Below, piece by piece: positions 3,231 to 35,281 of a stretch of DNA of 35,895 nucleotides (its first letter is position 1; every line of letters begins with the position of its first letter). The DNA comes from a virus, in the IMG/VR virus record IMGVR_UViG_3300036832_000705, positions 1 through 35,895 of that record. One strand, given 5' to 3'. The translations under genes and the position numbers were made by a program. Under the pieces are notes generated by a model that searched no databases, was not told where the DNA came from, and saw nothing but the letters and a program-made list of their open reading frames with translations.

Positions 3231-4466
3231 TCAGCTGTGTTCCAATGCTTCGAGGCGCTGCACGACCTCCTTTAACGCGTTGACCAGGGCGTAGATCAGC
3301 GGTGTGGCGTCCAGCGTGTAGTAAGGCTGCGCGATCGGGTCGCGGCGCTCGGTCAGTCTTTCGCCGACCATTTCCGGCATGACGCCGAGCACCTCCTGCG
3401 CCACCAGCCCGTAATAGGTCTTGCCGTCGGCGATCGTGTCGCCCTGCCCGTTGAACTGGTACGACACCGGGCGCAGCCGGCGGATCGCGGAGAGCCCCGC
3501 CGGGTAATCCGCGATGTTCCGCTTTAGCCGCACATCGGAGGCAGTGTCGCCCCAGGCGCCGCCGCCGGGCTTGTAGGCGCCGCCGTAGACATTGAGATCG
3601 CCATTCTGGACCCGCGCGCCGCCGTTGAGCTGCGCGTAACCGGTGACGTTGAGGCCAAAGTCGAGATCGAGACTGCCGTCGGCGCCGAAATAGCCCCAGG
3701 CCGCCGTCGGATTGCCGGAGCCGTCCATCGCCCCGAAATTGAGCCCGCTCGTGCCGACCCACATGCCGGAAATCGCACCGGATGTGTTGTACATGGTCAG
3801 ACTGGGCGCGTTGCTCCCCTCCACCACGATGCGGTTGCCGGTCGCGAACAGCGGACCGCTGACCGTGGCCCCGCCGTTGACGGTCAGACCGCCGCAGGTC
3901 ACCCCGCCGGCCACGGCGGCGGCACCGGTCACGCTGAGCCCATCGATCGTTGCCCCGCCGTTGACGTTCGCTCCGCCGTTGAGCGTGACCCCGCCGGCGA
4001 CCGCGAGGGTCGAGTTCAGGGTCGCGGGCCCGGTGATCAGCGTCGTCGGCAGCTGCGCGTAGTTGCCGGCGGTCAGGTTCTGCCCGACCGCCAGATTGCC
4101 GCTGAGGGTGCCACCGCCGGCGACCGTCACACCGCCGTTGAGCGTGGTCCCGCCGGCGACCGTGAGCGTGCCGGTCGCCGTCAGATTGCCGTTGACCGTC
4201 TGATTGCCGGTGTTGGCGACGACCTGGTCGAACCGGGCATAGTCGGTCGGGTTCGACGCCGGGGCGACGCTGGTATGCTTGAACCCGCCCATCGGCAGGT
4301 TTGCCGAGGGCGTTGTGTAACCGTCGAGATTGACGGTCCGCATCAGCCCCTGAGTGATGTCGTTGGTGTCGGCATCCATGCGGTCGGCAAGGATGTCGAA
4401 CCCGGCCGCGGCGTCCGCGACCCACGAGTGAAGGCGGTTGAAGTTGCCGCCCGACTGCCACGGCAT
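3231..4466 (-). CDS. Tail fibre with C-terminal S74 intramolecular chaperone
   Basis: This 411-aa trimeric-type fibre starts with an attachment-like domain (residues 1-85). The shaft (about 86-230) is built of short Gly/Asn/Thr/Val repeats such as NGGVTVAGG and NGGANVNGG. The last 102 residues form a peptidase S74 (endosialidase-type) chaperone: SDVRLKRNI begins at S310, where family members cleave themselves after folding. YYGLVAQEV and the coiled end LVNALKEVVQRLEALE also fit. In this family the released chaperone leaves a mature fibre tip near residue 309. It is the first gene of a leftward unit, divergent from small plus-strand genes, with a TGGCCA palindrome just upstream. The receptor cannot be predicted. 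Confidence 0.9.
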   Translation of the reverse strand: MPWQSGGNFNRLHSWVADAAAGFDILADRMDADTNDITQGLMRTVNLDGYTTPSANLPMGGFKHTSVAPASNPTDYARFDQVVANTGNQTVNGNLTATGTLTVAGGTTLNGGVTVAGGGTLSGNLAVGQNLTAGNYAQLPTTLITGPATLNSTLAVAGGVTLNGGANVNGGATIDGLSVTGAAAVAGGVTCGGLTVNGGATVSGPLFATGNRIVVEGSNAPSLTMYNTSGAISGMWVGTSGLNFGAMDGSGNPTAAWGYFGADGSLDLDFGLNVTGYAQLNGGARVQNGDLNVYGGAYKPGGGAWGDTASDVRLKRNIADYPAGLSAIRRLRPVSYQFNGQGDTIADGKTYYGLVAQEVLGVMPEMVGERLTERRDPIAQPYYTLDATPLIYALVNALKEVVQRLEALEHS

Positions 4467-4548: not shown

Positions 4549-4824
4549 ATGCTCGATTTGATTTTTTTTTGTACTGGCCCGATAGCCGGTTATGACCAGC
4601 CGTCAATTTGTCATTCCGGCAAGCCCAAGCCGCACAAGTGTTATGCTCTCAGCCCGGCGCCAGGACGTGAAGATTGGGTGTTTGTTATCAACCCACCGGA
4701 CCAGCGTAGCCGCGATGGCTGGTGGTGCCCGGCCTGCGCCCAGCAATTGCGGGAAATGATGCAACAGAACGGCTTTGAGATCATTGCCGAGAATATCCCG
4801 CTGCCGCCCGAGGGACGGGCATGA
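4549..4824 (+). CDS. Small cysteine-rich protein, possible zinc ribbon
   Basis: This 91-aa plus-strand protein has Cys residues in FFCTG, ICHSG, HKCY and WWCPAC. The spacing suggests a zinc-binding fold closed by the CxxC pair, followed by a helix (AQQLREMMQQNGFEIIAE). The start at 4549 is chosen because AGGAAGGGAG sits about 8 nt upstream; the frame is open further upstream but lies in the divergent promoter region. It is the first of three small rightward genes, opposite to the surrounding operon. No function can be assigned; small zinc proteins in phages are often regulators or host-takeover factors. Confidence 0.6.
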   Translation: MLDLIFFCTGPIAGYDQPSICHSGKPKPHKCYALSPAPGREDWVFVINPPDQRSRDGWWCPACAQQLREMMQQNGFEIIAENIPLPPEGRA

Positions 4825-4840
4825 GCGTCGCCCCGGGACA

Positions 4841-5143
4841 ATGACCATGACCATTCCAACGGACGATCAGACAAAGGGTCGCCGTGCACTTCGATCAGCC
4901 GGTCGCCGTGCATTTCGATCAGCCGCCGAGGCTGCCATGATCTTGGACGCGACCGGCGGCAGCCGGCGGGCGGCCTGGCATCTAACGATCACCCGCGAAG
5001 AGAGCGGCCAGCCGCACCTGGTCTTTCACGCCAAGAGCCTCGAGGCCGACGAGCTCAAGGCCTGCGCCCGCGCGGCCCGCCGGCGGCGCGGTGATCTCAA
5101 GATCATGCTGCGCGCCCCCTCGGGCGCGATCACCGAGCTTTAG
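4841..5143 (+). CDS. Small basic protein, unrecognised
   Basis: This protein is 100 aa if translation begins at the ATG at 4841; an in-frame ATG at 4937, preceded by GAGG, would give a 68-aa core. The optional N-terminal part contains an 8-residue tandem duplication (GRRALRSA / GRRAFRSA) from a 24-bp DNA repeat. The core reads AWHLTITREESGQPHLVFHA and then a helical, basic stretch (LKACARAARRRRGDLKIMLR). The alternating pattern could be a small alpha/beta fold. I do not recognise the family. It lies 16 bp after the Cys-rich gene and just before a small membrane protein gene, so the three are probably cotranscribed. Confidence 0.5.
   Translation: MTMTIPTDDQTKGRRALRSAGRRAFRSAAEAAMILDATGGSRRAAWHLTITREESGQPHLVFHAKSLEADELKACARAARRRRGDLKIMLRAPSGAITEL
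4877..4924 (+). repeat. 24-bp tandem duplication
   Basis: Two adjacent 24-bp units (4877-4900 and 4901-4924) differ at a single base. Being a multiple of three, the repeat duplicates eight residues in frame in the small basic protein, or lies in its leader if the later start is used. Confidence 0.85.
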
Positions 5144-21973: not shown

Positions 21974-22515
21974 CAGCCGCAATCCCCACTTACATCCACG
22001 GTACCGGCGGCAGCGCTCGTCTCCTGCCGTATCCAAATGATCGAATACTGCGCCCTGGTCCGCACGGTAGTGCAGGCCGAATGTACGATGCCGGTACCTG
22101 CGGCGATGGTCGCCAACCCCGCGCCGACCGCGACCACGGCGACATTGCAGCCTGCCGGCCAAGTGCTCAAAATCGACAGCGTCCCCGCCGCCGCATTGTT
22201 GTAGCCGATGGTGCCGCCGCACATCGCCGTCGCCGTCGGGTCGAGATTTGCGGTTGTTGCGGTGATAGCCGCCGGCGACGGCGGGAAGACATTGGCGTTG
22301 AACGTATTGGCAGCAGTCCAGGTGTTGGCTGCCCCGGCCCCGACGGCAACGCCGCCGTCCTGCACGCCACCAGTCGTGTCGGCCGCCGTCAACATATGAC
22401 CAACGACCGGAGCCGTGCCGGAAAGATACAGAAGGCTGGTCGCCGAATAGACGCCTCCCGCGACTAGGACAGCGACCACCGCTCCGATCAGCGCACCGGT
22501 AATTAAATTTTTCAT
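21973..22515 (-). CDS. Exported or membrane-anchored protein, unrecognised
   Basis: This 180-aa protein starts MKNLITGALIGAVVAVLVAG, a hydrophobic segment that could be an uncleaved anchor or a signal peptide. The mature part is Ala/Thr/Gly-rich with a beta-like C-terminal domain (CNVAVVAVGAGLATIAAGTG, then TTVRTRAQYSIIWIRQ) and paired cysteines. GTGAGG lies about 7 nt before the ATG. The C-terminal domain recalls the end domain of the fibre protein at 23742-24560, where a similar GAGCALPAATIGGHC segment occurs. Probably another surface or fibre-tip protein. Confidence 0.65.
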   Translation of the reverse strand: MKNLITGALIGAVVAVLVAGGVYSATSLLYLSGTAPVVGHMLTAADTTGGVQDGGVAVGAGAANTWTAANTFNANVFPPSPAAITATTANLDPTATAMCGGTIGYNNAAAGTLSILSTWPAGCNVAVVAVGAGLATIAAGTGIVHSACTTVRTRAQYSIIWIRQETSAAAGTVDVSGDCG

Positions 22516-22522
22516 ATCGACC

Positions 22523-22738
22523 TCACGGGCACAGAGTGAAGGGAGCCGTCCCGACTCCAACGCTGAAGGCCGCCGCGCCACTGCCGACACTCGCTGGAGC
22601 AGTGAAGCAGGGCGGCGGCCCGGCGCCGCCGGTCGGCATCAGCAGGATGAACGCATCGGCCGACATCGACACCAGCAGCACCCCCATCAATCCTGCTACG
22701 CCAAGGCTACGCAGGACTAGCGAAAGGAGACGTTGCAT
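22523..22738 (-). CDS. 71-aa exported protein
   Basis: This short protein has an N-terminal signal peptide (LVLRSLGVAGLMGVLLVSM, then SADA) and a mature chain of about 40 residues that is Gly/Ala/Pro-rich with two Cys (PPPCF, FTLCP). The ATG at 22738 has AAGGAGA six nt upstream. It overlaps the end of the preceding gene by 22 bp and lies just ahead of the next exported protein gene. The mature peptide is too short for family assignment. Confidence 0.6.
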   Translation of the reverse strand: MQRLLSLVLRSLGVAGLMGVLLVSMSADAFILLMPTGGAGPPPCFTAPASVGSGAAAFSVGVGTAPFTLCP

Positions 22739-23745
22739 CGCCCCTGCCCCAATGCGGTGGATGATGGCGTGACGGCGGCTCCAATCCACGAATTGGCAGC
22801 CACGACAACAGTCGATGTACCCAGCAGGTTCGTGGCTTCGGCCAACGCACCCGCCGTCATGTTGAATGCGCTCCCTATCGTCGTCCCTGCGTTTATCGCG
22901 CCGTTTGCCGTCTGCTGATAGAACTGCATCGAACCGGCACTCTCGACGATGTCGTTCTCGCAGTTGATCGCGTAGACGATCAGCGGCGTTGCCGAGCGTT
23001 TGACGCCAAACCCGGTAGTTGCCTTGTTGAGATCCATCCCCGGCATCCAGGCAAACGAGGCATCGCGCACCGGCCCCATCGGCACGGTCAGCGCGTTGGC
23101 GCCGGTGGTGATGATAAAAGATTGCATATCGGCCGGAAATGTCACCGCGGCGTTGGCCGCACCGCCGCCGACTTGCCCCGCATTGATAGCGTCGCCCGAA
23201 CTCGTAGCCGGCGTCAATGTCGCCTGCACTCCTATCGTGGCAATGGTCACTCCGCCCTGACCGGATAGCGTGTTCACGGCGGGGAATGTCAAATTGCATC
23301 CCGTGGCGACGCAAACAAATGTCCATCCGTACGTCCACTCGGCGCTGGTCACATTGTGTGCGGCGGGATTGACGGTAATCCCACCGTGGATGCCACCCAA
23401 CACAAAGCTGGTGGCACCGACATTGACTTGCAGACACTGATACCCCATCAGCTCGTTGCCGCCCAACGGGGACAGTCCACCGGGAATCTGGGTTTGCACG
23501 GCAAGCGCGGCCTTGCCGTCGACCGCAACCGTAGCGTTGCCCGTGTTCGGTGCGGTGAAATTAGCGCAGACGATATTCAGCGCCGTATTGGTAAAGCCGC
23601 CGGATGTCGTAATGACCTGAGCATTCGGGTTCGTAGCATTGACGGCGGTAGCCATAAACAGGGTCGGCCGCCCAGCAACCGCCTGAGCATGGGCAGCAGC
23701 AGCCGATAGGCATAATGCAAACGCAAGAGTAAGAAACTTAATCAT
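22717..23745 (-). CDS. Exported beta-rich virion-region protein
   Basis: This 342-aa protein starts with a clear signal peptide (MIKFLTLAFALCLSAAAAHA, cleavage near AQA). The mature chain is Thr/Val/Gly/Asn-rich and predicted beta: NATVAVDGKAALAVQTQIPG, TSFVLGGIHGGITVNP, TIATIGVQATLTPATSSGD. Four Cys occur in the mature part. The start at 23745 overlaps the upstream stop as ATGA, so a Met five residues earlier is rejected. I recognise no enzyme family. It resembles a fibre or surface protein in composition and position. Confidence 0.65.
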   Translation of the reverse strand: MIKFLTLAFALCLSAAAAHAQAVAGRPTLFMATAVNATNPNAQVITTSGGFTNTALNIVCANFTAPNTGNATVAVDGKAALAVQTQIPGGLSPLGGNELMGYQCLQVNVGATSFVLGGIHGGITVNPAAHNVTSAEWTYGWTFVCVATGCNLTFPAVNTLSGQGGVTIATIGVQATLTPATSSGDAINAGQVGGGAANAAVTFPADMQSFIITTGANALTVPMGPVRDASFAWMPGMDLNKATTGFGVKRSATPLIVYAINCENDIVESAGSMQFYQQTANGAINAGTTIGSAFNMTAGALAEATNLLGTSTVVVAANSWIGAAVTPSSTALGQGRCNVSFR

Positions 23746-24560
23746 GGCACGGTGAACCATTGGGTAGCTGCCACAGCCACTAGATGAGCGGTCGTATCAA
23801 CCGGTACGATGATCGGCGCGTTAGCGGCCAGCGCATTGATGATCGCATTGCTGGCGTTGAGCGGATAAAGCGTCAGGGCGTTAGCCCCACTGTTTCGGAC
23901 GTAGCAGTGTCCGCCGATTGTTGCTGCCGGAAGCGCACATCCCGCACCCGCGGCAACTGTCGTGACCTCGTTGATCGCGGCGGTGAGTGTGGTCGCCGTC
24001 GCCTGCGTGGTTCCGGCGGCGGAAACCGCGCGGGTCACGGTATCGGCGCCAGCGCCTGTGGTGCCGCTTGCCGCAGCCGTGACGCGACCCTGCGCGTCAA
24101 CCGTAATGTTGGCGTTGTTCCAACTGCCTACATTGCTATTCACGGCTGCCAGCGCCGGGGCCGCATCGCTCCGCATATAGGTATTGGCAATGCCGGGGAT
24201 CATAGTAGCGCCGATCTGCGCGGAGGGGTTGGCCCCCGTAGCGCCGGCCGGAGCCGTGCCGTTTGCCGCGGCGGTGATCCGGCCTTGGGCATCCACCGTC
24301 AGATCGGTGTTGGTATAGGGGCCGGGCGTCACTGTGGTATTAGCCAGGGCCGGCGCCGCGTCCGACCGCATGTAGGTGGTCCGGGTGCCGGGAACCATCG
24401 TGCCGCTGATCGTCGCTGTCGGGTTCGCTGGTGTACCGCCACCCGGCGGCGTTGCCTGCAGCGCCGAGATCTCGTTGGAAGCAATAAGAAAGTTGTTGCG
24501 AACCGAGGCCGTGGTCGGGTTCCCCGTAACGGGGATGGTCGTGTCGATTTGTGAAGGCAT
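23742..24560 (-). CDS. Repeat-containing tail fibre protein
   Basis: This 272-aa protein without a signal peptide has an N-terminal attachment-like part (NPTTASVRNNFLIASNEISA) and two copies of a unit of about 55 residues with NPTATISGTMVPG or NPSAQIGATMIPG, TYMRSDAAPALA, and TVDAQGRITAAANGT or TVDAQGRVTAAASGT. This TVDAQGRxTAA unit is common in phage tail fibre shafts. The C-terminal domain ends IVPVDTTAHLVAVAATQWFTVP, the sort of strand-rich tip with a final aromatic motif seen in fibres. AGGGG lies about 9 nt before the ATG. Confidence 0.8.
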   Translation of the reverse strand: MPSQIDTTIPVTGNPTTASVRNNFLIASNEISALQATPPGGGTPANPTATISGTMVPGTRTTYMRSDAAPALANTTVTPGPYTNTDLTVDAQGRITAAANGTAPAGATGANPSAQIGATMIPGIANTYMRSDAAPALAAVNSNVGSWNNANITVDAQGRVTAAASGTTGAGADTVTRAVSAAGTTQATATTLTAAINEVTTVAAGAGCALPAATIGGHCYVRNSGANALTLYPLNASNAIINALAANAPIIVPVDTTAHLVAVAATQWFTVP

Positions 24561-25761: not shown

Positions 25762-25787
25762 TAAAAAACCCCGGAAAATCCGGGGTT
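25762..25787 (-). terminator. Intrinsic terminator after the beta-helix spike gene
   Basis: A perfect 9-bp stem (aaccccgga 25767-25775 / tccggggtt 25779-25787) with a 3-nt loop is followed on the minus strand by a T-run (TTTTTTAT, 25761-25768, overlapping the stem end). It lies about 40 bp after the TGA that would end the extended spike reading frame, and only about 12 bp before the next start codon. Confidence 0.75.
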
Positions 25788-25829: not shown

Positions 25830-25907
25830 TCACTGATAAATCCATGCCGTATTGTTGCACATGACAAGCGCCGCAAGGCTTCCCGTCGTCGAGCCCACCG
25901 CCCCGCC
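25830..25907 (-). other. In-frame continuation of the spike gene beyond an amber stop
   Basis: The 25 codons after the TAG at 25908-25910 continue in the same frame and end with TGA at 25830. They encode a Gly/Ala/Val start (GGAVGSTTGSLAALVM) and CNNTAWIYQ. This resembles the last strand pair of phage fibre tips, where a Cys-N/D-G/N-T-x-W motif is usual, and completes the domain begun by LPACGGANAGLLQVVSNG upstream of the stop. It has no start codon or ribosome site of its own. Confidence 0.6.
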
Positions 25908-25930
25908 CTAGACAGGGGGTGGGCTCGACG
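25887..25930 (-). promoter_or_regulatory. 13-bp hairpin enclosing the amber stop
   Basis: Perfect arms cgtcgagcccacc (25887-25899) and ggtgggctcgacg (25918-25930) flank an 18-nt loop. Inside, ccct/aggg (25906-25909 / 25914-25917) can pair further. The TAG complement lies at 25908-25910, at the tip. No T-run follows. It may influence termination or readthrough at this codon. Confidence 0.6.
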
Positions 25931-27719
25931 CGCCATTCGACACCACCTGGAGCAAGCCAGCGTTCGCGCCGCCGCAGGCCGGCAGTTGGTTTATCAGGAT
26001 CGGCACCAGATAGCTGCCGCCGTGGATCACCGCCTGCCCGGTAATCTGGGTCTGCGTCTGTCCGCTGCCGGTTCCGGTCGGGACGATGGAAAACGGAGTG
26101 TCGATGAACCCCAAGACGCCGTTGGGATCGAACCGGTCAAGAAAGAAAGTCCCGGTCGGCGGATCGTTGCGCCATCCCCACACCGGGGTGCCGAGATAGT
26201 ACCCCGGAGACTGCGGCGTCTTGATGTTCGAGAACCACAGCTCGCTGACCGAGCCGCCGACACCGCCAAGCTCCAGACCCGATATCATGGTGTTGGCATG
26301 GGTAGTGCAGCCGGCGCCCGAGCACAGCGCCCCCGCCGTAAAGCTGCCCGACGGATAAAACAGCGGCGTCCCAACGAACTCGACCAATGAATTGGTGTTG
26401 GCGACGACACCGGCAGCCCCGGCGGCATACTGAGAATACTGCTGCACAGTAGTGTTGGCGAGGTGCAATTGCCCGCCGCTGCCGCCGCCAATGTAGGCCA
26501 GGGATTGGAACCAGCCACCATCAATGCCGTCGAAATAGACATCAGCGTTGCTGGAGGCGAGGTTGATCGCGTAGGGCGTCGCCTGCGCGCACTGCCCCGC
26601 AGTCTTGCTCGAGGTGCTGTCGGTGTAGATTATCGATCCGGTGAACCGCCCGGTGACCGATGCTTGCGAGGCCGGTACCGGCGTGGGTGTCGATCCCCCA
26701 GTCGTCCCAGCCGCCACCGTCATCGCTTGACAGACTTCGTTGAACGACACTCCTTTGGCCTGGATATGGCCGAGGGCCATATGAATTTGCCCGAAGCCAC
26801 TGGTCACACCGTCCTCGGAGAGCTGCATCGCCGTGCCACTAAACGAGAACTCGACATCGGTGACCTGCGGATTGGCGAGATACCTGACGTCCCAGTCGAC
26901 ATGACTGGCCCCTTCCATCGCGTACCACCAGTTCGCCGAGCCCTGATACCACCACATCTCGTAGCGCAGCCGGCTCAAATTCAGCGTGTTGTCGATCCGA
27001 AAGAACCGCGTGCCGACATTGAAACAACCGAAATTGTTGCGGTCCATCCCCGAGTAGCTGCCGAATACCCCGTTGGCCGGCCCCTCCCAGTCCACGCAAT
27101 GCGAGGCGTTGACGATGCTGTTGTTGTTGATCCAGACCCCAACCGCTGCGGTGGTTCCGTCGACCTTGATCGTGTAGGGGAACACGGTCCAGGTATACGG
27201 CACGAAGACGCACGGACTAGCGCACGTCCCGCTGGTCGGTGTCGGTTGCGTGTACCAAAAATTTATGCCCTCGACCGCAGCCGAGCTGCCGGTGATATCG
27301 ACGCACGGATTGACAGTGTCCGTGCAATGCAACCAAGTTGATTTATTGGTCCAGTGGCTTTCGGTGTTGTCGATCGGGCTGGTCCAATTGAGCCCCCCCG
27401 CACCCTGGAGATGGACGCCGGCCGGAACGGTCAGGCCGTGGTCGATCACGTAGGCGGCCCCGGTCGGAGGGAGATAGACCGTACCGCCGCCGAGGCCCCC
27501 GACATAGGCGAGCGCCGCATTTATCGCCGCGCCGTCTCCGGTCGTGCCGTCGCCTTTGGCGCCCCACGCCTGCACATTCACATCACCGGGAAACCTGACG
27601 CCGTTGCCCGTTAAAGTGTTGTACAGGGTCCACGGCACATCGGTCGTCGGCGGCGTGGGGTGGACCTGCGCTTGCGCTGCCCCTGCACAGAGAAGCACAA
27701 CGAGCGCAAGCACACGCAT
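25908..27719 (-). CDS. Beta-helix tailspike-like protein (pectate-lyase superfamily)
   Basis: This 603-aa protein carries a signal peptide (MRVLALVVLLCAGAAQA) and then the N-terminal pattern of pectate-lyase-type right-handed beta-helix proteins: VNVQAWGAKGDGTTGDGAAI, AALAYVGGLGGGTVYLPPTG and YVIDHGLTVPAGVHLQGAGG. The long middle part repeats short strands and turns with N and G, as in spikes that bind or cleave polysaccharide. Catalytic residues cannot be chosen by eye. The annotated end is TAG, but the frame continues for 25 codons into a plausible fibre-tip end. The ATG at 27719 overlaps the upstream stop as TGATG; GTG at 27722 is possible. Confidence 0.82.
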   Translation of the reverse strand: MRVLALVVLLCAGAAQAQVHPTPPTTDVPWTLYNTLTGNGVRFPGDVNVQAWGAKGDGTTGDGAAINAALAYVGGLGGGTVYLPPTGAAYVIDHGLTVPAGVHLQGAGGLNWTSPIDNTESHWTNKSTWLHCTDTVNPCVDITGSSAAVEGINFWYTQPTPTSGTCASPCVFVPYTWTVFPYTIKVDGTTAAVGVWINNNSIVNASHCVDWEGPANGVFGSYSGMDRNNFGCFNVGTRFFRIDNTLNLSRLRYEMWWYQGSANWWYAMEGASHVDWDVRYLANPQVTDVEFSFSGTAMQLSEDGVTSGFGQIHMALGHIQAKGVSFNEVCQAMTVAAGTTGGSTPTPVPASQASVTGRFTGSIIYTDSTSSKTAGQCAQATPYAINLASSNADVYFDGIDGGWFQSLAYIGGGSGGQLHLANTTVQQYSQYAAGAAGVVANTNSLVEFVGTPLFYPSGSFTAGALCSGAGCTTHANTMISGLELGGVGGSVSELWFSNIKTPQSPGYYLGTPVWGWRNDPPTGTFFLDRFDPNGVLGFIDTPFSIVPTGTGSGQTQTQITGQAVIHGGSYLVPILINQLPACGGANAGLLQVVSNGASSPPPV

Positions 27720-28660
27720 CACGCCACCCCAAAGTTTGTGCCGTCGAAGATCAGTCGAAGCCTGCCGTAAGCTGTATTGATAATCGCCGAAGGTTGGTTG
27801 TCGATATTGGCTGAGCCCCCCGGCAGCACCGTAATCACGTTCGTGCTCGGGCTCGGCACGCCACAGGCCCCGCTTCGGTCCATGACCACGACCTCTTGCC
27901 CGATGACCAGCATCGCTGCGGCCAGCGTGATGGTCGCGGCGCCGTTGAAGGAGACAAAGATCCGCCCGATGCCCGCGGCCGAGAGGGTATACGAGCTGGT
28001 CCTCACGGCGACAGTGCCCGCCCCGACTGCCGATAGCGTGGCGGGACCGCCGCCGGGAGCCATATCCCAGACCGACTGGCCGGCATCCCAGGTCGATTGG
28101 TTATTGTCCCAGCTGCTCAGGTTGGTGCCGGGAGTCAAGATCAGTCCGGCGCCGACATTCCAAGTCTTGTTGTCGACGTAGTTTTTGGTTGCCGCCTGCA
28201 ATCCCGAGGCCGGATCGCCGGCCAAGGTCAAGGGACCCGTCAGCGTCCCGCCGGCGAGCGGCAGATAGGGATAGGTCTGACCGCCGCCCGCTCCCTGCAT
28301 GCCGAGCCATTGCCGGCGCGACGGCACCATGAGCCCGGTCGTGGCCGCGTTCAGCAGAAAAGGCACCCCTCCGAGCCCGGAGTCCGGGGGTCCGAAATGC
28401 TCGGTGCCAGAGGGATAGACGTTGACCGCAAAGCCCGTCGAGTTGCGCAGCACGTGCAGATACTGGCCGGCGGCCGGCGGCAAGCGCACACCTTGAGCCG
28501 CCGCCGTCGCCCCTTCGAGGATGACAAAATTGGCTTGAAGCAGTGTGGCGCTCGCCTGGTCCGCGCCGGCCGGGGTGACGACCGCCGGCTGGTCGCTGGC
28601 CAGCATGTGAGCCAGCTTGGCCGCGGTTCCGGCCAGCATGACCTCACGTTTGGTCGCCAT
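27719..28660 (-). CDS. Tail fibre protein
   Basis: This 313-aa protein has an N-terminal globular part and then YLPLAGGTLTGPLTLAGDP with LQAATKNYVDNK, a widespread tail fibre element. A central segment repeats SSWDNNQSTWDAGQSVWD. The C-terminal half is a beta-rich tip (YTLSAAGIGRIFVSFNGAAT, ITLAAAMLVIGQEVVVMD) ending RLRLIFDGTNFGVA. No signal peptide is present. It immediately precedes the beta-helix spike gene with overlapping stop/start, so the two may be parts of the same adsorption apparatus. No strong ribosome binding site is seen before the ATG at 28660. Confidence 0.82.
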   Translation of the reverse strand: MATKREVMLAGTAAKLAHMLASDQPAVVTPAGADQASATLLQANFVILEGATAAAQGVRLPPAAGQYLHVLRNSTGFAVNVYPSGTEHFGPPDSGLGGVPFLLNAATTGLMVPSRRQWLGMQGAGGGQTYPYLPLAGGTLTGPLTLAGDPASGLQAATKNYVDNKTWNVGAGLILTPGTNLSSWDNNQSTWDAGQSVWDMAPGGGPATLSAVGAGTVAVRTSSYTLSAAGIGRIFVSFNGAATITLAAAMLVIGQEVVVMDRSGACGVPSPSTNVITVLPGGSANIDNQPSAIINTAYGRLRLIFDGTNFGVA

Positions 28661-34618: not shown

Positions 34619-35281
34619 ATGCACAAACAGTTGCTCTCCGGCGTCGCTCTGGCGCTCGGCATGCTGGCCGGCTCGGCCAACGCCACTCTAACATTATCGG
34701 TCACCGATAACGGCACCGCGATTGCGGGGTGCGCAACGAGCACCGCTTCGCCTCTGTCGGTTACCTGTAGCGACCCCAGCTTCTCCGCGATTCAAGTCAG
34801 CGCGCAAGGCACGCCGACCGTGCCCTCGCCCGATCTCGGAACGATCACGATCAGCGCCACCGCCGGGGCGCTCAGCGCGACCCACATCTTGGAGGCCATG
34901 CTGACCCAGACCGGGCTCAGCAATTTCCCCGGCGGCGTCAGCTCGACCACGTTCACTGAAAACAGCTTGATCGGGTTACCGGGCCCGACCTCGTTCAACA
35001 TGCTGTTCAACGGCGCGTCCATCGCCAGCGCGACATTGCCGGTTAGCGCCGCACCGCAGACCGCGGGGCCGTTTATCGTGAACCTCGCCGCAGTCCCCGG
35101 ATCCTTCACCGACGAACAGACGATCTCGGTGGATTTCGGGCCGTCGATCGCGACGCAACAGTCCGAGGCGGGCGCCCAGTTCCAGGCGATTTCCACGCCC
35201 GAGCCAGCCTCGCTCGGACTGCTCGGCAGCGCCCTGATCGGCATGGGCGCCGTCGCGTATCGCCGCCGCCGGCGCTCCTGA
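34619..35281 (+). CDS. Exported PEP-CTERM domain protein
   Basis: This 220-aa protein has a Sec signal peptide (LSGVALALGMLAGSANA, cleavage near residue 21) and a beta-rich mature part with many Thr/Ser/Ala/Gly. The C-terminal sorting signal is complete: TPEPASLGLLGSALIGMG, a short hydrophobic helix, and a basic end AYRRRRRS. In bacteria with exosortase, PEP-CTERM proteins are cut near the PEP motif and go to the outer surface or matrix. AGGAAGGA lies about 7 nt before the ATG. The gene stands alone on the plus strand with its own promoter and terminators, opposite the phage operons. It could be cargo or a host gene at an element border. Confidence 0.9.
   Translation: MHKQLLSGVALALGMLAGSANATLTLSVTDNGTAIAGCATSTASPLSVTCSDPSFSAIQVSAQGTPTVPSPDLGTITISATAGALSATHILEAMLTQTGLSNFPGGVSSTTFTENSLIGLPGPTSFNMLFNGASIASATLPVSAAPQTAGPFIVNLAAVPGSFTDEQTISVDFGPSIATQQSEAGAQFQAISTPEPASLGLLGSALIGMGAVAYRRRRRS

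Follow-up and report, generated by a model that had tools for sequence, protein, structure and literature searches.

In-frame UAG codons stand at the centre of the described systems that come closest to the locus considered here. In murine leukaemia virus gag-pol, the signal for reading through the stop lies downstream of the UAG, separated from it by an 8-nt spacer (PMC4178896). In T4 gene 60, a UAG and a stem-loop are combined at the take-off codon, and the stretch that is skipped is non-coding (PMC11194080). Recoding of TAG has been described in phages that use genetic code 15 (PMC9523058).

The window analysed was the whole of a viral DNA stretch of 35,895 nt (IMG/VR record IMGVR_UViG_3300036832_000705, positions 1 to 35,895), which is an incomplete genome. 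A spike-like gene on its minus strand stops at a TAG where related spike tips have an aromatic residue; the last 25 codons of the frame are therefore taken as the protein's normal end, and the stop is most likely a one-off. Probably, the TAG either arose by a recent nonsense mutation of a conserved Tyr codon in this lineage or reflects a miscalled base in the consensus, and is not a programmed signal. The features of the frame were as follows:

25908..27719, minus strand: spike-like gene as annotated, from ATG at 27719 through 603 codons to TAG
25908..25910, minus strand: in-frame TAG, in the column of a conserved aromatic residue (codon tally over at least 104 other module copies)
25833..25907, minus strand: 25 sense codons past the TAG, conserved module end (identity with homologue L002 and profile match)
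25830..25832, minus strand: TGA, ancestral gene end (L002 and other module copies end at the matching place)
25833..25985, minus strand: C-terminal tail module, split by the TAG (profile; predicted strands on either side of the TAG)
25767..25787, minus strand: terminator-like stem-loop with a T-run, past the TGA

Coordinates and translation confirmed the report of the first-pass annotation that the spike frame stays open beyond the TAG at 25908-25910 for 25 codons (GGAVGSTTGSLAALVMCNNTAWIYQ), up to the TGA at 25830-25832. The terminator that it placed 40 bp after the TGA was found as a terminator-like stem with a T-run (25787-25767), about 42 nt on.

Spike relatives were found in two other contigs of the viral collection, from which records very close to the window's own were possibly left out. 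One of them (L003) is cut before the C-terminus. The other (L002, on a 70-kb contig of an unrelated phage) is full length, and its protein is 72% identical to the window spike. The codon of L002 at the TAG column encodes Tyr, the residues beyond it are GTTVGTTGNLAALVMCNNTNWIYQ, and the gene ends with TGA at the same place; past the TAG, 20 of 24 residues are identical between the window and L002. Compared with L002, dN/dS was 0.27 past the TAG (24 comparable codons) and 0.24 ahead of it (583 codons). Such equal constraint on both sides indicates that the stop is recent, erroneous, or bypassed by functional readthrough, and a long-standing stop followed by a useless extension is unlikely judging from these codons.

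The contig that carries L002 (G001) has the spike cassette and a few patches in common with the window (shared stretches 25830-28012 and 22300-24059), and the capsid region of the window is absent from it. The occurrence of the cassette in a contig of this kind means that the spike moves between different phages with its end intact. L002 also has, ahead of the C-terminal module, a near-duplicate stretch some 84 residues long (4555-5103), which the window does not have.

The C-terminal module itself was found in a much wider set of proteins. Its consensus, VTDATxPTYxGxLTGGGxVxxPVxCNGTxW followed by a stop, is completed by the extension of the window. A scan with a pattern for the final residues (VMCNxTxxW) showed that the same module ends unrelated phage tail proteins, and similarity searches placed it in Burkholderia phages Bm1 and BcepF1 and in two bacterial genomes. 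In a second scan, the pattern at the TAG column took TAA, TAG and the two Tyr codons. Both scans and the similarity searches together gave at least 104 other distinct copies, and the residues at the TAG column among the copies listed were Y in 99, F in 2, W in 2 and I in 1 (103 aromatic), with the share of Tyr inflated because the second scan was confined to codons beginning with TA. No stop was present in this column among these copies, though the second scan had admitted TAA and TAG. The 12 distinct copies found without the second scan (seven from the VMCNxTxxW scan, L002, and four from similarity searches) all had an aromatic residue there (8 Y, 2 F, 2 W). The window has TAG at this aromatic position of the PTY motif.

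Only a few residues separate the conserved Trp from the protein end in nearly all copies of the module; the TGA of the window lies three residues past this Trp, as in other copies, and the module closes the protein. A module profile of nine rows, one of them the window's own, matched the read-through frame (TAG taken as X) over the whole module with 62 bits (E 2.1e-18). With the nine-sequence alignment, a profile search matched 2 of 696 genomes; a search of 297 bacterial genomes with a two-sequence C-terminal alignment gave weak matches only, which were not relatives. Pfam gave no convincing family match for the nine module members. The module (L153-L268 and others, the C-terminal 50 aa or so of phage tail proteins) is common and could be modelled as a new domain; widespread in phage tail proteins and without a Pfam model, it is usable for checking spike ends.

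By these comparisons, the 25 codons past the TAG are the conserved normal end of the protein. Both the claim that the added residues form a normal tip and the claim that the TGA is the true gene end held, the former through the Tyr and identical end of L002, the module match and the identity past the TAG, the latter through the matching ends of L002 and the other module copies; codon conservation past the TAG was likewise found against L002. The TAG might instead be the true ancestral end with 25 codons open by chance, and an open run of this length is not rare at 66% GC. However, the identity with L002, the module profile and the terminal position of the module in other proteins rule this out, and its probability is negligible.

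Another explanation is that TAG has been reassigned to an amino acid throughout this phage, as the in-frame TAG within a conserved protein might suggest. TAG nevertheless terminates 10 of the 41 predicted genes, including those for the capsid, a methyltransferase and a GNAT protein, in agreement with the first-pass annotation, which had listed these genes and had considered general recoding unlikely. The capsid gene closes with TAG at the very codon where 75 of 79 homologues also terminate (TAA, TGA or TAG). No tRNA, and so none that reads TAG, was found in the window, although the part of the genome outside it could still hold a suppressor, and no suppressor tRNA was found in five large related or cassette-sharing contigs, which held a single tRNA-Glu. 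Judged from these gene ends, TAG is a genuine ordinary stop in this phage group, and general reassignment is excluded, chiefly by the capsid end that matches the relatives; we regard it as almost inconceivable.

Other interrupted genes were sought by scanning for stops and frameshifts against the open reading frames of relatives, a scan that was noisy until it was confined to the predicted gene frames. Of the 32 genes that had same-frame relatives, the spike alone showed homology that truly continued past its own stop; the two other listed crossings of a stop were a run-on into the next gene or a brief overrun. As the spike is the sole case, the contig is not generally error-ridden.

The TAG is enclosed by an inverted repeat with these arms:

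25918..25930, minus strand: upstream arm of the hairpin (5' on the mRNA)
25887..25899, minus strand: downstream arm of the hairpin (3' on the mRNA)

The arms form a perfect 13-bp stem, as had been claimed, and in the RNA fold the stem lengthens inward until UAG is left as a three-base loop. The folding energy had a z value of -3.7, and none of 200 shuffles was equally stable. The window has three perfect stems of at least 13 bp with a loop of at most 24 nt, whereas shuffled sequences predict 0.08, which makes the hairpin unlikely to be a product of chance. Of the other two, one (1077-1113, 13 bp) is intergenic with no T-run and one lies within a GCC-rich repeat. At the L002 counterpart the hairpin was absent (fold z = +1.5), as it was from all other fetched loci (L001 being the window itself), so the hairpin appears to be as new as the stop. 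Rfam gave no match. An on/off switch by inversion of the 18-nt hairpin spacer was also considered; the inverted spacer is in frame without a stop, but the conserved Tyr-Gly would be lost, and the idea was unsupported.

Inverted repeats draw template-switch mutations (PMC8604942) and are associated with Illumina miscalls (PMC3622629), so the role of the hairpin would be passive whether the change is a mutation or a base error. This codon may have changed because of the hairpin, the inverted repeat acting as a mutation hotspot or else making the site difficult to sequence. Strong motif-specific Illumina errors come after GGC or GGGT in the read direction (PMC3622629); neither precedes the TAG base on either strand, which leaves the inverted-repeat effect as the only one of these that could account for a base error.

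The same hairpin also figures in functional readthrough, in which the hairpin or a suppressing host would let some ribosomes decode the UAG, so that long spikes with the tip and short spikes lacking it are both made. The unusually strong structure is centred on the codon, the TAG is kept beside an intact frame, and the extension is constrained, although the dN/dS value after the TAG would follow just as well from a recent mutation or an error. Against this, the stop is preceded by half of the stem, which would sit in the ribosome during decoding, whereas the signal of the murine leukaemia virus type is downstream. The suppressor tRNA that it might use was missing from the incomplete window and from the five large relatives. 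Programmed readthrough is usually judged in comparisons by whether the stop is conserved, and on the sequences compared the locus fails this test: L002 has Tyr, the module copies listed have no stop, and the hairpin is not conserved in L002 or any other fetched locus. Functional readthrough is therefore considered unlikely. Less probable still is the fuller proposal that a DNA phage decodes UAG in the loop of a long hairpin to make long and short spikes, with host attachment tuned by the minority of spikes that have a complete tip; this geometry was not found described. If true, readthrough here would give an unusual example of recoding used by a DNA phage to vary the tip that binds its receptor.

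Bypassing in the manner of T4 gene 60 would need take-off at the GTC before the TAG and landing on the GTC 45 nt later. The in-frame GTC at that distance and the position of the UAG within a stem-loop, as at the T4 take-off site (PMC11194080), agree with such an event; GTC is a common codon, so a matching one is expected. The 15 codons that would be skipped hold the conserved Tyr-Gly and the Gly-rich part that are present in all relatives. Bypassing was rejected because this gap is conserved coding sequence, in contrast to the non-coding gap of T4, and it is very improbable.

The structure of the module, predicted from 47 sequences, had a mean pLDDT of 81 and three strands, two of which are located past the TAG. 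From this model, a truncated protein would lose most of the sheet of the module. Foldseek showed that the model resembles parts of a BcepF1 protein (TM-score 0.81) and of a parallel beta-helix protein (TM-score 0.72), both predicted, with no E-value under 0.001; no relative of the module was found among solved structures (PDB). The gene as written would thus yield mainly a protein without the last two of the three predicted strands. Such a spike would probably misfold at the tip, and basal suppression would give traces of the full-length spike at most.

The name tailspike is used here in a qualified sense, for similarity to pectate-lyase-type and tail families. Residues 47-109 of the spike matched Pect-lyase_RHGA_epim (E 3.7e-8), and the protein matched PHROG tail-spike families; tblastn of phage records with the spike gave no match. 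A full-length structure prediction from two sequences was uninformative (pLDDT 32). The N-terminus of the spike protein (27650-27719, minus strand; MRVLALVVLLCAGAAQA) and that of L002 (2968-3040) are signal-peptide-like, which is unusual for a virion protein, and the spike protein may be exported instead of, or before, joining the virion. Elsewhere in the window, the 220-aa product of a plus-strand gene (34619-35281) has an N-terminus resembling a signal peptide and, at the C-terminus, a PEP-CTERM sorting signal (TIGR02595, 21.3 bits against a cut-off of 16). The DNA of this region is 84.5% identical over 865 bp to a phage contig (G005). It seems unusual that a PEP-CTERM protein is carried by a phage contig.

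The first-pass annotation had left the choice between readthrough, a nonsense mutation and a base-calling error. Nonsense mutation or base error was strengthened by the Tyr of L002 and by the lack of a stop in the at least 104 copies, while readthrough to a long and a short spike gained no comparative support. A real mutation and a base error have roughly equal odds, and the sequence does not rank them. Besides the missing GGC or GGGT context, two points count against a recent mutation or error. It is odd that a majority consensus should carry a broken spike, unless the spike is dispensable; and a purely incidental substitution leaves unexplained the perfect stem centred on the codon, which is unlikely by chance. 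In phage KP32, one of two receptor-binding proteins is reported not to be essential for virion assembly and infection (PMC13082707). A broken spike could be tolerable here provided that a different receptor-binding protein is enough; further tail-fibre-like genes are present in the window (3231-4466 and 23742-24560). The apparent short spike probably does not occur as a variant in nature, and annotations of the gene should mark the interruption at a conserved codon.

Compared with the described systems, the window shares with murine leukaemia virus gag-pol (PMC4178896) an in-frame UAG, conserved coding sequence after it and strong RNA structure nearby, but the stop and the structure of the window are unconserved, and the structure encloses the stop in place of a downstream arrangement with a spacer. 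With T4 gene 60 (PMC11194080), it shares a UAG in a stem-loop and a matching codon about 45-50 nt downstream, whereas the stretch that would be skipped in the window is conserved protein. Like phages of genetic code 15 (PMC9523058), it has an in-frame TAG in a phage gene; unlike them, it still uses TAG to terminate about a quarter of its genes. The module of the Bm1 and BcepF1 type agrees with the window in the read-through sequence, in the positions of Cys and Trp, and in the end just past Trp, and a stop at the conserved aromatic column is seen in the window alone.
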